A DNA stretch of 20,268 nucleotides from Cochliopodium minus (Eukaryota > Discosea > Himatismenida > Cochliopodiidae): contig JAMYWO010000514.1 of NCBI GenBank assembly GCA_024220525.1, forward strand, positions 1-20,268, read 5' to 3'. This document shows positions 176 through 17,575 of this stretch, in pieces (within the stretch, counting starts at the first letter, position 1; every line of letters starts with the position of its first letter). Position numbers and translations under genes: made by a program. The notes below the pieces were generated by a model, which saw only the letters and a program-made list of their open reading frames with translations, did not search any database and had not been told where the DNA came from.

Positions 176-282
176 ACCAATTCTTTAATTTTTTTTAATA
201 ATTTATATTTAAACTCTCGCATAAAATTAAAAAAAAAAAAATAGCTATAATTGATTTTTGAATTGATAATAGTGTTGTGGAT
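176..282. promoter_or_regulatory. Short divergent intergenic region
   Basis: 107 bp separate the ATG of the leftward gene (175) from the ATG of the Rax2-like gene (283). It is almost pure A+T with a run of 11 or more A near 230-241. If both starts are right, this must hold both 5' leaders and both core promoters. No specific element is recognised. Confidence 0.35.
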
Positions 283-3200
283 ATGAATCGATGGATTACA
301 TTTTCAATTTTTTTACAAATGGTTCTATCATTTTCATTATATAATCAAGGAATATTAATTCATGAAGACAATAACAATCTAAATAATGGATTTGGGGTGT
401 ATAATGACCACAAAAATGTGAATAAAATGAAATTTGGAAGTATAACATCAGGATATCCAAAGAAGTTATCAAAGATAAATGGGATAATAGGAACGATAAT
501 TGAGAATAAAGAATATATACTCACATATGGAGAAGTATCATTGATAAATGATACTTCATTTACAAATAATCTCATCATATTTTCAAATGATACGTGGGAT
601 ACTCTAGATAAAGGAATAATTTCACAATCATTTGATTCAATAACGATGATCTCCTCAACAAGAATGATAATCACTGGAAAGATATCAAATATAGGTCAAG
701 TACAAGCAAATGATTGTATGATGTGTGATTTATTAACATCGAGTTGTAATGTACTGAATGATCAAGTTCAAGTAGGATTGCCACTCTATTCATCAATATT
801 GAGCACCTCATTTGATAATGAAAGCACAATATATCTATTATATACGAAAGAAACTCTCGGAGAGAAATATGTTTCTCTATCAAGCTGGAATGATTCTTCG
901 AGTAAAAAAAATTTACTCATATCTATAAACTTGAACTAATATTATAAACTTCTTATTGAATATCCCTCAAGAAAATATATTATATTTTTACCTTTTTTAA
1001 ATAAAAGGAGGATAAATATAAATATAAACAAATAATAAACTCTTATCAACTTCTTCTTTTAATCTTTGAGGCATCTCATTGAATATATAAAAAATATTTA
1101 TATTTTTTTCAATATTTGATAGGAACTTGGAGAAATTATTTCGAAATAGAAAGTGATTGTGATTATGGCTTCTTTGTATTGGCATGGAAAGATAATGAGA
1201 TTCTATTATACGGAGAAAATGTGACCTTGGCGCCATCCACCCAATGCAACCTATCCTCCGAGCACTTACATCTCTTCTGGTGGGACAGCAAGAAGAAATG
1301 TTTCGAGGAAGATGAGCAGGCAGGGAAGATGATGGGATCGATCCAAACAGGAACAAGATCCAAGAAAACAACCTCAAATCCAAACATGCTCACCTCCTAT
1401 CTCATCACCCAGATGAATGGCATCTTTCAATATACAAGGGATACCCTAAATAAAACCAGCATCATCGTTAATGTGACGGGGAATATTTTTGATTACGTGG
1501 ATCATTCCCGATTCCCCTTTGGCTACACTTTGGCCAGTGATGAGATTGGCTTCGTCTATTTGAGCGATCACAGCCGTGGCGATGTTTATTGGATGGATGA
1601 GCGAGTTTTGGCCGCTTGGAATAAGTATTCCTTCAAAATCTGTCCAAGTGTTCCCCTCACTAATTTAAACAACTTTGTTGTTTTAAATGGTAAAAATATT
1701 TACAAAAATTATTGACAATTTTTTCTATAGAAATTTAATTTAATTATTTTATTTCTGAAAATCAATAATTATTATTTGTTTACTGTTTTATTTCCAAAAG
1801 AATAAACATTCATTTCAATTATTTTTAAATTATTTTTATTTTCTTTTCATTTTATTTTATTCATGTTTTTTTAAAAAAAAGAGAATATTTATTTTGCATG
1901 TCCTGGCGTTGGATACCTCACCGACAACATAACCATAAACAGTATCAACTCCCAAACAAAAACAGAACAAGAAAAACTCACTGCAACTCCTCACCTCACA
2001 AACTTTTCTTTCGTTAAAAACACTTACCAATTTGCTTCCATCGACAAAATCTGTAGCTGCGAAGAAGGCAAGTTTTTAGTTCATGGTGATTTTTATTACA
2101 TCAATGACATTGCTTTTAATGGTGTTGCTTTTTTTAACGGTTATTTTTTTTAAAATTTTTTTTTATTTTTCCTTCATTTTATTTTATTTTTTAATTTTAT
2201 TTGTTATTTTGGTCATTTTATTATTTTGGATATTTTTTTTATTTTCAATAATTTATTGTGTTTGAATAAATATATTCCACATATAAATATGTGATGTATA
2301 GACAGTGTTTTAATTATCAGTTCAAAATTTACATCAATTTGTATTAAGACATTTTTCATTATTATTTTTTATTTTTTCATTTTATTTTAAAATTATGTTT
2401 AAATTTGATTTTCATCTTTATTTGATTATTATTTTAAAATTTGATCATTGTTTTTATTATTTTTAAATTTTTTATTTTATTTTATTTTATTTTTTTATTT
2501 TAAATTTTTTATCTTTATTTTTTTTTAATTTTTCATTTTTATTTTTAATTTCTTGAAAAATAACAGGTTCGAAATGGGAGAAGGTTTTTGATGATGAAGT
2601 AATCAACTTTGATTGTCTTTACAGCTCATCCACAGAAGAAATGTTCTTCAGCACTAACAACGAAACCCACGTCATGATAGCAAAGAAGAGTTGTTATTCC
2701 AAACAACCAGAAGGTTGGAAAAAGACTTACTTCAAAACTAATGAAGCTCTCATTGGAATGTCTATTGATCAAATTACAAGTAAAAAATATTATTTCCTTT
2801 TCATTTATTTATTTTAATATTTAATATTTGATATTTATTTATTTTTATTTTTATTTATTAACTTATTTATTTTAATATTTAATTTTTGGTATTTATTTAT
2901 TTTTATTTTTTATTTTTTATTTTTTTATTTATTATTCTTTTTTAATTATTTTTTAATTTTCATTCAATTTTTTTTTTTAATAAGTTTTAATTTTTTTATT
3001 GTTCATTATTTATTTTTTATTAGTTTATTATTTTTATTTTTTTCTTCGAAAGATTTAATTATTTTTTTTTAATTTTTTATTTCAAATAAAAATTTCATTT
3101 TTAATTTATTAATTTAATTTTTTTAGATATAGGGTATGTGGGGATAGTAAGAGACAGCCAAAAAGTTTATTCGTTCGACTTATCTTTGGACACAGCTCCC

Positions 3201-4205
3201 AACCTCATTTTCGAGAACGCCAACGTCACTTTTGTCAACTCAATCATCGTCTACAACAACTTTATCTTTTTGGGAGGTCTCTTTGAGGCTCAAATCCTCA
3301 ATTTTACTCAAAAATCTTTCATTGCCTACAGAATAGACTCTCAATCTTTAAATAATGGTACAAAAAAAAACATAATTTACATTTTTATTCATTTTTTATT
3401 TATTTATTTTCATTTCTATTTGATTTATTTTTTTAAAATTTTTTATTTTAAAAAATTTTTTTATTTTTTTTAATATGTTTATTTTTGTTATTTTTTTTAA
3501 TTATTTCTATTTTTTACTAATTTTAATTATTTTTCAGTAATTTTTTGAATTATTTTAATTTTTTTAAATTTTTGAAAATGATTTTAATTTTTTTTTTTTT
3601 TTGAAGGAACATACATCCCAATAACAGGAGTGACATCACCAGCATTCCCATTCATCCAAACGTTCTTCATCAACAAAGGAATCCTCTACGCAGGCGGCTA
3701 CTTCACAGAGATGTCCAACCAACCCCTCACCAACCTCGCCGCCTTCAACCTCACCTCGCTCAGCTGGCACACCGAAGTGAACAAGAAGTTCTCCAAGTTC
3801 ACGCAGTCCCCAAATGAATATGTCGTCGACATCAAAGTTACCAACAACAACAACAACATCTTTGTTTTGTCAAAGAAAATCAAAAAGAACAGCATTTTGT
3901 ATGTCCAGATGGATTCTGGCAGCTTTTATCTTTTAAACGAGAACTGTGATGCTCTCGAATTGATTGATTATCTCAACCCCCTTTTCTTTTATTTTTTCGT
4001 TTCTTTGATTGTTTTCGTTGTTTTTTCTGTTGCTTTTTCTGTTGGCATTTTTTGTTTGGTTCGAAGATGCAAGTCTCCCAAACACACTTACATCCAGCTT
4101 CCTCATTTCGAGTCCAAGAAGAAGATCGACGAGAACAATGTTAACTCTCCCAGTCTTTGTTTGTTGGATGAAGATGTGGATGTAAATCACTACAACAACA
4201 ACTGA
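283..4205 (+). CDS. Rax2-like single-pass membrane protein (beta-propeller-type ectodomain)
   Basis: Six exons join in frame: 283-901, 1123-1689, 1882-2139, 2567-2779, 3127-3357 and 3607-4205, giving 828 residues. The ATG at 283 is preferred because it begins a signal peptide (MNRWITFSIFLQMVLSFSLY). The long extracellular part is rich in Asn-x-Ser/Thr sites and has short repeats of the type seen in Rax2 and delta-60 propellers: HGDFYYINDIAFNGVAFFNG (about 462-482), FIFLGGLFEAQILNF, and ILYAGGYFTEMS with NLAAFNLTSLSW (about 655-683). A transmembrane helix lies near 754-781, followed by RR-C and a tail of about 47 residues. In fungi Rax2 marks cortical sites for polarity; here a similar adhesive or polarity role is only inferred. 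Introns are 192-427 nt and T-rich. Exon 1 uses A/T-ending codons, while the 3' exons favour C-ending ones. Splicing is well supported; the family name is moderately sure. Confidence 0.7.
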
Positions 4206-12108: not shown

Positions 12109-15100
12109 TTAATTTTTGTTGTCATCTTTTGTGATGGTGGAGGACCAAGAGTTGCTAGATGATTCCTGATTGACAGAAATGGTGGAACCCAAAGAAGAGT
12201 TGGAACCAATGAGATTGAGAACCTTGTTGGCAACGAAAGAAATCTCTCCAGAAGTGTTAGAACTAAAAAAAAATAAAAAAAATAAAATAAAAAATAAAAA
12301 ATAAAAAAATAAAAAAATAAAAAATAAAAAACCTGAAGCTGGTCAAAGTTTTAGAATCCAAAGACAAAGTGAACTTGGAGTTTGGAGAAACACCTTTGAT
12401 GGAACCTTCAATCAAAGTTTTTTTGTTGTCAGAGTTTTGGATGTAAGTGATGATCCCTCTCACATTTCCTTCCACAAAGGAGGACTCTGCGTGTTGAGTG
12501 GTTTTAGTTGGGACAGGTGTTTGTGTCACAGATGACTCTAATTTTTTATTTTTATAAAAAAAAATTAATTTAATTGATTAATTAAAGGATAAAACAAATA
12601 AAAATTAATTTGATTAATTAAAGGATAAAACATTTAAATTTTTTTATTTAATAAAATAATTTAGATGATAAATTTTAAAAGTAAAAAATATTGAAAAAGA
12701 AAATTATTTTTAATTCAAAAATGTTCAGATACAACTATATAAAAATAAATAAAAAATAAATAAAAAATAAAGAAAATAAACCAAAAATGTTAAAAATAAA
12801 TCAAATTAAAATTAACAAACTAAACCAAAATAATAAAAACAAAATTGAATCAAAATAAAATTAAAAAATGACACTAAAAAAATTAAATAAAAAAGAATAA
12901 ATGTTTTTAACTGGGTTTAGGAGTGCTTTCGGAAGTAGTTGGGGGAGAAGTTTTGGCTTCAGCAGAAGAGGAAGAAGAGCTGCTGCCCATATTCTTTTCG
13001 ATGCTTTGAAGTACACTCAAGAGTTTTTGAGCAAGCTCTTTGTTCTGGAAACGGACGAAGAAACTTTGGAGGTTGCTGCTTTCCGACTCGGAGTCCACTA
13101 CGAGAAAAGTTACTGCTTTTTCTGTGATGATTCGTGAAGACATTCCTTTGTATATCAGTGCGTTTAGTCTCACCATTCTTGTTTGGTCTGTTCTAAATAC
13201 TGAAAAAGAGAGGAATGTTTTTTTTTTAATTGAATATATAATCCCAAAAAAATATTTGAAAAAAAAATAAAAAATAAAAATAAAAAAATATTCTAATAAT
13301 CAAATAAAAAATTTTGATGAAAAACAAATAAATAAATAAAATAAAATAAAAAGAAAAAAGAAAAAAAATTAATAAACAAATAAAAGTTATGAACAAAATT
13401 AAAAATTAAATTCGAAATAAAAATAATAAAAATTTTTATGAAAAAAAAATAAATAAATAAATAAAAATTAAAGCAGAAAACATTATTTAATAATTACCAA
13501 ATCTGTTGGATCCATCCTTGGACTTGTTGATAGTCAATCTACCAACACCCCTTTCCTTCCAAGACTTGTTCTCGCCCTCACCAACCAAAACGAAGAGTTT
13601 GGATCTTTCCGCGAAGAGTTTCTCCTCATCCTCCTCCCCTGTCTTGATCTGCTCCTCTGTCATTTGTACCAACTTGAGGTTAGGGGCAGGAGTTGTGTTT
13701 TCTGGTTTGAACGCTTCAGGATCTTCTTCGTCGTCATTTTCTTTGTTTTTGTTATTAGTGTCACTCTTGTTTTCTTGTTTTCATTTTTTTTTTTTTATAA
13801 AAAATTAAAATTTAAAATTGAATTTAAAAATAAAATAATCTGAAAAAATTGAATTATCTCTAAATAATCAAGAGAATTTTGTGAAGAAATAAGAAAAAAT
13901 TTAAAAGCAATTGAAAATCTTTAAAAAATTTTTGAAGATAAAAATTAAAAAAAAAAGTAAATAATATGAATTTTTATTTTATTTAAAAGACTAATAAATA
14001 AATCAATAAATTAGTAAAAATTTAGGTTAAAAGATTAAAATTATAAAGGTACCAAAACTGAAGCCACTATCTTGATTTTTGGAAATTTCCCCAAAGGTCT
14101 TGGATTCAGTGTTGTTAGTGTTGGAGAAGAGACTGTTACTATTTTCGAAAGAGGACTTTGTGTCGAAAAAACTGCTTGAGTTTCCACCAAAAGAGTTTTC
14201 GGAAGGGTTCCATTTGAAATCAAAACCTTATAAATTTAAACAATAAAAAAATTAAATTTTTGGAAGTTTAAAAAATAAAAAATTTATTGAAGGAAAAAAT
14301 AAAATTTGAAAAAAATTAGAAGGATATTATGTAAAAGGATTAAAATATAAAGAAACATAAAAAAAGAGACAATTAAAAACAAATTAAATACATTAAAATC
14401 AAATGGAAAAAAAAAAAACAAAAAAACAAATTAGAAGGAAAACAAAGTGAATGGATTAAAATTTTTTCAAAAAATAAATGAGACAACTAAAAATTAATTA
14501 TAAAAAAAATAATAATAAAAAGAAACATTCTTGTTTTACCACCTGTAGTATTTTCAGTTGTAGAAGGAGTGAAACCAAAGTCGAAGCTTGGTTTCTGTTG
14601 ATTATCAAATCCAAAATCAAATTTGGGAGGATCTTGTTTCTCAGAGGAGGTGTTGGTGGTTGAGGTAGGTGTTGGTCCTCCAAAATTGAATTCTAATTTT
14701 GGCTTTTCTGTTGCGCTTTCATTTTCTGTTGTTTCTTGTTGTGTTGTTTTTCCTTTTCCTTTTCTTGTTGAGACGAATCTATATTCAAAAAAAAAATAAA
14801 AAATCAAAAAAAATAATTTTCTTTTTGGGTGAAATAGAATAAGAGAATTTTGATTGATATCAATCATTAACTCTATTTATCAAATTTATTTCCATTATAT
14901 TTTATAAAATCAATCATTTGGTTGATTGGCTCAATGTCAATAGATAATCACTTGATTATATCCAAAGGAATATTAAATTATGGAGATATCATTCAATAGA
15001 ATCTTAATATTTGGTTTTTTTTTTTGTAAATTGGTCTGTATAATTTGATAAAAGTTTATTTTGCTTGATTATCTTACCTTCTTTTTGATAATGTTTCATT

Positions 15101-15371
15101 AGAAGCTTTTTGAAATTCTTTATCCATCTGATAGTATTAAATAAGGGAGTAAAAAAAAGATTATTCAAATATAATAAAGGATTATAAAAGTAAATAATAA
15201 TTTGTATATACATCTTCATCTCCAACTGTATCATCAACTTCATCGAATTGAGTTAATTGTCTCACATTCCCTCTTTTCTTATTTGCTTTTTTTGTAAAAA
15301 AGAAAAAAATGAGAAATGGGTGATAATTTTTAGAGAGGAATTTTTAATTTACATCCTTCATTGTTTTCCAT
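12109..15371 (-). CDS. Nup50/Nup2-type FG-nucleoporin with Ran-binding domain and SOD-like tail
   Basis: Nine exons, leftward: 15371-15353, 15285-15212, 15127-15078, 14778-14540, 14226-14053, 13773-13498, 13199-12912, 12537-12333 and 12262-12109; 492 residues with every phase matched. The N-terminus (MENNEGSNKKRGNVRQ, KEFQKASNETLSKRRF) is basic, as in the importin-binding start of Nup50/Nup2. Residues about 70-185 carry FG repeats (FNFGG, KFDFGFDNQQ, SFDFGFTPS, SFGGNSSSF, SGFSFE). After an acidic linker comes a RanBD1 domain, about 222-350: TGEEDEEKLFAERSKLF, SWKERGVGRL, RTDQTRMVRLNALIYKG and FFVRFQNKELAQKLLSVL. It would act at the nuclear pore basket in Ran-dependent import. A low-complexity linker leads to an SOD-like region (about 395-475): GNVRGIITYIQ, LIEGSIKGVSP, LNLIGSNSSLGSTISVNQ, without copper or zinc histidines. 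If the 374-nt seventh intron were retained, the protein would stop at TPKPS, just after the RanBD linker. Confidence 0.82.
12561..12632. repeat. Imperfect tandem repeat in nucleoporin intron 7
   Basis: Two copies, 12561-12596 and 12601-12632, share AAAATTAATT, then TGATTAATTAAAGGATAAAACA; the first has a 4-bp insertion (TAAT region). A local intron duplication with no apparent function. Confidence 0.6.
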
Positions 15372-16441: not shown

Positions 16442-17575
16442 ATGAATATTGATTACGAAATTACTCCCAAAATTGATATCGACAAATGTTCCCCTTGTGA
16501 AAGTATCAAAGTCAAATTGTATGTGCTAAAAAAATCAAAGGGACAAATTGAAGGGTGCTACATCATCGCAAAAGATGATAAGGGACATTTTGAGGAAACT
16601 AAAGAATTCATCCCTTCAGAAAAAATGAACACTACAAAAAATTGCAACAATTTTGTTGAGATTGAGCTCAAACCAAGAGATAGTTCCACAATCAGAACAT
16701 TACCAAGAATTGTCACATTTACTCTTTACAAGTTTAAAACAATCTCGGAAGCAAAATTATATTTCGATTTCAGCATGTTTTGTGGAGAGTTCTTTGAAAC
16801 AAAACCAAAGAATTTCATGGTTTTTGGACCTGTGGGTAACGGGAAATCTTCTTTGATTAATGGTTTTCAACAGATGTTGGACAAAAAAAACGAGAAAGAA
16901 CAAAGCAGAATTGTGGCTTCAAGTCAGGAACATTGTTCTACTGTTTTCAAAATCAACTTTTTAAAAGACAAAACTAACGAAATGAGAACTAACATTGGAG
17001 TTTGGGACTCATGGGGATTGGATATTGGGAACTACACTGAGGATCTTTTTCAAAAATTTTTGGGTGGTTATTTCGGCAACAACACCCAAAAAGAAAATGA
17101 TTCTTTTTTGTTAGAAAAAGTAAGAAATGAGGAACCAAACATGAAGAACAAACAACAGTGTGCCATTTTAGTCGTTTCACAGGATAAAATCGCAATGAAA
17201 ATGAAGAAAAACATCTTAGATAGCAAGTTAGAAAGACTTTTGGAATGTGCAAAACAGTGCAACAACATCACTCACTTTATAGTTGTTGTTTCCAAGATGG
17301 ATCTGTTCGAACCTAGATTGAAAGAAGATCCAATGTTCATGAACAAGAACATCCAAGCTTTGTTGGAATACACCACCAAGATTTTTGATACATCAAGAGA
17401 GAATGTTTTTCCTCTTGTTGACACCAGTTTAGTCACTAATGAAAAATCTATCAAGTTCAATGCTTTAAAGTTGTACTACAACATTTTGAAAGGTGCATTG
17501 AACAATTCTTTGTCTGTCGAAAAAGATGAAGAATGGGGAAGCGAATGGGAAAAACAATACAATCTTAAATTTTAA
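16442..17575 (+). CDS. IFI44 / immune-associated-type GTPase with N-terminal beta domain
   Basis: An intronless 377-residue frame. The first 120 residues alternate polar and hydrophobic in strand-like fashion (SIKVKLYVLKKSKGQIEGCY; RIVTFTLYKFKTISEAKLYF), suggesting a C2- or arrestin-like beta-sandwich. A GTPase domain follows: P-loop GPVGNGKSSLINGF (129-142, GxxxxGKS), a Thr in HCSTVFKI (164-171) as a switch I candidate, G3 as VWDSWGLD (188-194, DxxG), and G4 as VVSKMDLF (282-289, S-K-x-D form of N/TKxD). This order and the 'GNGKSS' P-loop recall IFI44 and the wider immune-associated/Toc-like GTPases. In animals IFI44 is interferon-induced; no such role can be assumed here. Ile240-region ILVVS precedes a Lys/Met-rich helix that may be an insertion. 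The family call is moderate; GTP binding is well supported. Confidence 0.75.
   Translation: MNIDYEITPKIDIDKCSPCESIKVKLYVLKKSKGQIEGCYIIAKDDKGHFEETKEFIPSEKMNTTKNCNNFVEIELKPRDSSTIRTLPRIVTFTLYKFKTISEAKLYFDFSMFCGEFFETKPKNFMVFGPVGNGKSSLINGFQQMLDKKNEKEQSRIVASSQEHCSTVFKINFLKDKTNEMRTNIGVWDSWGLDIGNYTEDLFQKFLGGYFGNNTQKENDSFLLEKVRNEEPNMKNKQQCAILVVSQDKIAMKMKKNILDSKLERLLECAKQCNNITHFIVVVSKMDLFEPRLKEDPMFMNKNIQALLEYTTKIFDTSRENVFPLVDTSLVTNEKSIKFNALKLYYNILKGALNNSLSVEKDEEWGSEWEKQYNLKF

Follow-up and report, generated by a model that had tools for sequence, protein, structure and literature searches.

Nucleoporins of the Nup50/Nup2 kind share an N-terminal NUP50 motif, FG-type motifs, and a Ran-binding domain in the same order, and to our knowledge their known members stop at the Ran-binding domain. 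Nup358/RanBP2 is a further nucleoporin, in which Ran-binding domains are followed by a C-terminal folded domain of enzyme type, a cyclophilin. The release of import cargo is sped up by Nup50 and Nup2 (PMC13242641). Nup50 is recorded for many species in a eukaryote-wide survey of nuclear-pore genes, and a word search of the main text of this survey gives no occurrence of “superoxide” (PMC2951903). Among the papers listed for such terms in the open-licence PMC literature (in one case 6 of 15), none reports a fusion between Nup50, a nucleoporin, or a Ran-binding protein and a superoxide dismutase (SOD).

The copper chaperone CCS has an N-terminal copper-binding domain and a C-terminal CxC motif. 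Its SOD-like domain uses the SOD fold for binding, not for catalysis, and an engineered SOD1 barrel in which loops IV and VII are missing has also been described (both PMC9136931). As modeled, the gene analyzed here shows the common architecture of Nup50 and Nup2, and differs from both in having ∼120 more residues with SOD homology beyond the Ran-binding domain.

Gene model and nucleoporin domains

The gene lies on the minus strand of the window, by which we mean the whole 20,268-nucleotide stretch of DNA analyzed (positions 1–20268 of contig C489); genome searches covered the 44.65-Mb assembly of 598 contigs. Genes of the window possess many AT-rich introns, from which we take the DNA to be that of a eukaryote. 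Our model of the nucleoporin gene comprises nine exons (15371–12109), which are connected by GT..AG joins throughout, have consistent phases, and give a product of 492 residues. Strand names (β1–7) and residue roles given for the tail are those of SOD. The parts of the gene, in window coordinates, are as follows.

15353–15371, minus strand: exon 1, 19 bases with the start codon (MENNEG); placed from frame and GT..AG only, the least certain exon
15212–15285, minus strand: exon 2, basic NUP50 N-terminal motif NKKRGNVRQLTQFDEVDD; gene model and Pfam NUP50 match (residues 9–70)
15078–15127, minus strand: exon 3, rest of the NUP50 motif; gene model and Pfam
14540–14778, minus strand: exon 4, FG-type motifs FNFGG, FDFGF, and FDFGF; gene model
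14053–14226, minus strand: exon 5, FG-type linker; gene model
13498–13773, minus strand: exon 6, acidic linker and Ran-binding domain, first half (WKERGVGRLTI); gene model, Pfam, and genome search
12912–13199, minus strand: exon 7, Ran-binding domain, second half, with the Ser/Thr/Pro linker; gene model, Pfam, and genome search
12538–12911, minus strand: intron 7 (GTTAAA..TTAG), the disputed junction; gene model and start-exon enumeration
12333–12537, minus strand: exon 8, linker and SOD-like domain, first half (β1–4 equivalents); SOD profiles
12263–12332, minus strand: intron 8, 70 bases, 84% T, GT..AG; gene model
12109–12262, minus strand: exon 9, SOD-like domain, second half (β5–7 equivalents, Greek-key loop LNLIGSNSSLGS), with the stop codon; SOD profiles

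A 36-base tandem repeat (2.2 copies, window 12554–12632) is located within intron 7 close to its acceptor.

In the spliced product, Pfam recognizes the NUP50 family (PF08911) at residues 9–70 (27.2 bits, cut-off 22.5, E 6e-6) and the Ran_BP1 family (PF00638) at residues 228–342 (74.4 bits, cut-off 23.2, E 1e-20). The translation between these two domains reads FNFGG, FDFGF (twice), and SFGG. When compared with the PDB, residues 1–373 matched Ran-binding proteins, with Nup358/RanBP2 at the top (27 sequences with an E of 1 or less). The order of NUP50 motif, FG motifs, and Ran-binding domain in the predicted product is that of a Nup50/Nup2-type nucleoporin. The product would also resemble Nup358/RanBP2 in the succession of Ran-binding and folded enzyme-type domains, but the enzyme fold is another one, and Nup358/RanBP2 is far larger and has several Ran-binding domains. 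An exon-by-exon search of the genome, which can miss genes, detected no other Ran-binding exons, its two matches being the nucleoporin gene itself. The corresponding search with the NUP50 family gave no match anywhere in the genome and, as it missed the nucleoporin gene as well, is uninformative.

Two neighboring features lie on the plus strand. Positions 16442–17572 hold a single ATG-started open frame of 377 codons that is GTPase-like, with the P-loop GPVGNGKSS and weak, below-cut-off Pfam matches. Positions 262–4205 hold open frames of which the first contains MNRWITFSIFLQMVLSFS and the last a membrane segment and an acidic tail; a scan of three frames over this region gave no above-cut-off Pfam match, and the frames could belong to one multi-exon membrane-anchored protein.

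The SOD-like tail

The tail consists of the last 119 residues (374–492), encoded by exons 8 and 9. The first-pass annotation had placed a SOD-like stretch at about residues 395–475, based on three motifs; all three are found in the tail (GNVRGIITYIQ, LIEGSIKG, and LNLIGSNSSLGSTISV), the coordinates given for the exons are correct, and the profile match spans residues 397–475 of 492. For this match we constructed a profile from viral SODs (51 SOD loci from viral contigs, of which 26 were translated and 25 distinct sequences kept) together with human SOD1, the letters of which were compared with the PDB. The tail scored 19.7 bits (p 3.2e-8) with the full-length profile and 26.4 bits (p 2.7e-10) with a trimmed version from which the loop IV columns and everything after strand 7 had been removed. 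None of 20000 composition shuffles of the tail reached the SOD score with either profile, the best shuffles giving 13.8 bits (full) and 12.2 bits (trimmed), and the reversed tail and shuffles of its composition scored far lower with the viral-type profiles. An independent profile of 76 prokaryote (bacterial) SODs gave a weaker match of 9.5 bits (p 4.7e-5), which 3 of 20000 shuffles equaled. Profile comparison (85% probability, P 5.9e-6) aligned tail residues 24–101 collinearly with SOD 12–118. As in Cu/Zn SOD, β2–β3, β6–β7, and the Greek-key loop follow one another collinearly, with a looser correspondence in between.

Each exon was also scored alone. Exon 8 aligned with SOD positions 9–37 (p 7.4e-7; 0 of 20000 shuffles, 2 of 20000 with the prokaryote profile), and its 54 residues as read are 47% identical to a viral SOD within the alignment. 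Exon 9 aligned more weakly with SOD positions 90–117 (p 2.8e-4; 8 of 20000 shuffles, 87 of 20000 with the prokaryote profile). A match of both exons to their own half of SOD, in order, is unlikely by chance, and these results also support the splice between exons 8 and 9. The listing from 2303 natural open frames that were scored, which covers 8 bits to 12 bits above the tail, contains SOD exons of the genome's SOD gene (loci L001/L057) and exon 8 of the tail, in overlapping loci, and no other frames.

A phmmer search of the PDB with the last 104 residues (E up to 10) returned 96 sequences, and SODs, mostly variants of human SOD1, made up 54 of the best 60. The top matches have marginal E values and are a tandem SOD1 (0.0018) and three SOD1 chains of 110 residues that carry short linkers instead of the loops (0.005); the best match outside the SODs is a CD4 chain (E 0.016), and ATP synthase delta also occurs among the weak matches. 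Judged by length and alignment, the three chains (PDB codes 4bcz, 4bd4, and 7cjv) appear to be loop-deleted laboratory constructs. They share with the tail its approximate size and the missing loops, but they are engineered, whereas the tail looks natural and fused to a nucleoporin. Curated families responded differently from our own profiles: Pfam Sod_Cu (PF00080) did not report the tail at E 10, no Pfam, NCBIfam, or PHROGs family takes it above cut-off, and the sole NCBIfam match is to another family, CsxC (E 0.016, 15.3 bits versus a cut-off of 135). Sequence comparison shows the predicted tail to be a homologue of cytosolic-type Cu/Zn SOD.

Cu/Zn SOD binds its metals through six histidines and one aspartate; its zinc loop IV contains a disulfide and its electrostatic loop VII an arginine. 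The tail differs from Cu/Zn SOD in that its matched region lacks histidine, cysteine is absent throughout, and the zinc loop is missing according to profile comparison; nor does Pfam report it. The HxH motif of SOD β4 aligns to FTLSL, with a slight shift between two alignment methods and no histidine in either; the β7 histidine is replaced by asparagine, and the position of the aspartate ligand falls into a gapped stretch. The only histidine of the tail, His-389, precedes the SOD match, so that all six histidine ligands are lost, as had been claimed at first pass. The same annotation described the active-site loops as absent, which is borne out for loop IV; the full SOD model has no match past about residue 476, which means that loop VII and the final strand have been lost or can no longer be recognized. 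Because of the loss of ligands and loops, it is very unlikely that the predicted tail has dismutase activity.

AlphaFold models were computed for two substitutes of the spliced tail, and in both alignments the region after β3 is misplaced. The tail read with intron 8 retained was predicted with low confidence (pLDDT 52) and contains three strands, near the β1 position and at the β2 and β3 positions; exon 8 alone, also of low confidence (pLDDT 58.5), contains two strands at the β2 and β3 positions. Neither model amounts to a fold, and the two speak neither for nor against an eight-stranded barrel.

Junction between exons 7 and 8 and alternative readings

Whether the tail belongs to the nucleoporin depends on intron 7. 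Spliced at A|GTTAAA (12912/12537), exon 7 continues in phase into exon 8; unspliced, it ends in TPKPS* at a TAA (12909–12907) that lies inside the presumed donor. The composition of the linker is alike on either side of the junction in the gene model. Codon usage of the tail frame is positive in exon 8 (0.39 bits per codon) and exon 9 (0.56), whereas the other two sense frames are negative and contain 4 and 7 stops; of six reverse-strand frames, three score slightly above zero (0.14 to 0.23), below the tail frame. Among dinucleotide shuffles, 114 of 5000 were equally open over the length of the tail. The open frame of exon 8, taken upstream to its stop, contains no ATG, in agreement with the initial observation that none precedes the SOD-like part in its exon. 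The enumeration of start exons (a single ATG exon within 12906–12538 with a GT donor, acceptor 12538, an intron of at least 40 bases, right phase, and open frame) extends this result to a single upstream exon: the one ATG in this interval yields 0 single-exon candidates that splice in phase to 12537. The first-pass preference for fusion over a separate gene is upheld insofar as a single-exon start is missing, whereas the splice 12912/12537 is a prediction and exon 7 may instead stop at the TAA. Weighing these points, we consider it likely, from the genomic sequence, that exons 7 and 8 are spliced and the tail is fused to the nucleoporin.

An unlikely alternative is that the nucleoporin ends at TPKPS* and that the SOD-like exons lie in its 3′ flank, either as a decayed remnant or as a small transcript of their own. 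The in-frame stop right at the presumed donor speaks for such an ending, as do the donors themselves, which are GTT in introns 7 and 8, the two tail introns, and GTA in introns 1–6; a GTT donor is found in one of the nine introns of the genome's SOD gene L001, as spliced in this analysis. The 3′ flanks of other window genes are up to as T-rich as intron 7, which is a further point in its favor, and among the window genes base composition after stops fails to tell intron from 3′ flank. A separate transcript is opposed by the start-exon enumeration for single-exon starts, and a decayed fragment by the two exons, whose frame is still open, codon-biased, and consistent in phase. Still less probable, in our judgment, is a real fusion in which the tail is a Ser/Thr-rich β or disordered extension that came to look like SOD by convergence. 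The tail does contain 26 serines and 14 threonines among its 119 residues, is recognized by no curated family, and draws CD4 and ATP synthase delta into its weak PDB list, but each exon matches its half of SOD independently and collinearly, shuffles and the reversed tail stay far below the tail with viral-type profiles, and the identity of exon 8 to the viral SOD is not what convergence would lead one to expect.

A third reading accepts both fusion and homology and differs in function: the tail could be a decoy or docking site for CCS or SOD, as proposed for inert SOD homologues of poxviruses, an idea to which we attach very little weight. Such homologues exist in poxviruses, and a title cited in PMC7823800 describes them as decoys that bind the copper chaperone; SOD1 is moreover bound by domain 2 of CCS (PMC9136931). 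Against a decoy, a single Cu/Zn-SOD gene was detected in the genome, and its product looks secreted. The interface of the SOD dimer is formed largely by loop IV and the C-terminal strand, and the tail has neither loop IV nor the last strand, and thus lacks much of the surface on which such docking would rely.

Origin and possible role of the tail

The sole Cu/Zn-SOD gene detected in the genome is L001 (L001:176–2467, contig C53; Pfam Sod_Cu 198.5 bits). As spliced here, it has a signal-like start, two SOD domains in tandem, and a membrane segment at the C terminus. In the second of these SOD domains the HxH copper motif is gone (SINTF), but other residues of the ligand regions are kept. We rejected this gene as the source of the tail, which matches its domains with p 0.01 and 0.02 versus 6e-8 for the best cytosolic-type viral SOD and 7e-6 for human SOD. 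Human SOD1 matched the L001 gene alone in an exon-by-exon search of the genome, and the tail found no paralogue there at E up to 10, its two matches being the tail itself; searches of this kind can miss genes. Relatives of the tail were not confirmed among 26 pattern matches in viral and 134 in prokaryote contigs. The ancestor of the tail may have been a cytosolic SOD, or else a CCS, now otherwise lost. Fe/Mn superoxide dismutase genes are present on contigs C206 and C125 (L058–L060), so the organism has another means of superoxide removal.

Our preferred reading, which we regard as somewhat better than an even bet on the sequence data, is a Nup50/Nup2-type nucleoporin of the nuclear basket that carries a degenerate Cu/Zn-SOD-like barrel as a non-enzymatic binding or spacer module. 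The gene would encode, in this order, an importin-α-type N-terminal motif, an FG linker, a Ran-binding domain, a Ser/Thr/Pro linker, and a SOD-like β barrel, which becomes part of the nucleoporin if splicing joins exons 7 and 8. The barrel presumably still folds, without dismutase activity, and would be a passive folded module at the C terminus of a transport factor, most likely a protein-binding platform or an end cap. Since the tail lacks loop IV and the final strand, SOD-type dimers are not expected, and the tail is more likely to be monomeric or to have another partner than to form a dimer of the SOD or CCS type. The use of a SOD fold for binding would be shared with CCS, but the nucleoporin has no CCS copper-binding domain in the Pfam report, and the tail shows no cysteine and no sign of the SOD dimer interface.

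We regard the finding as a new domain architecture in which known parts are combined. A more far-reaching proposal, which we put forward tentatively and hold to be somewhat doubtful, is that one eukaryotic lineage has fused a natural loop-free and metal-free SOD barrel, of the kind engineers build, to the C terminus of a nucleoporin as a new binding module of nuclear transport. If true, the finding would add a new architecture to Nup50/Nup2 and a further enzyme fold recruited as the end domain of a nucleoporin, comparable with the cyclophilin of RanBP2. It would also provide a natural case of a SOD barrel without metal chemistry and so bear on the stability of the barrel without metals and loops, which is a central question of SOD1 misfolding.
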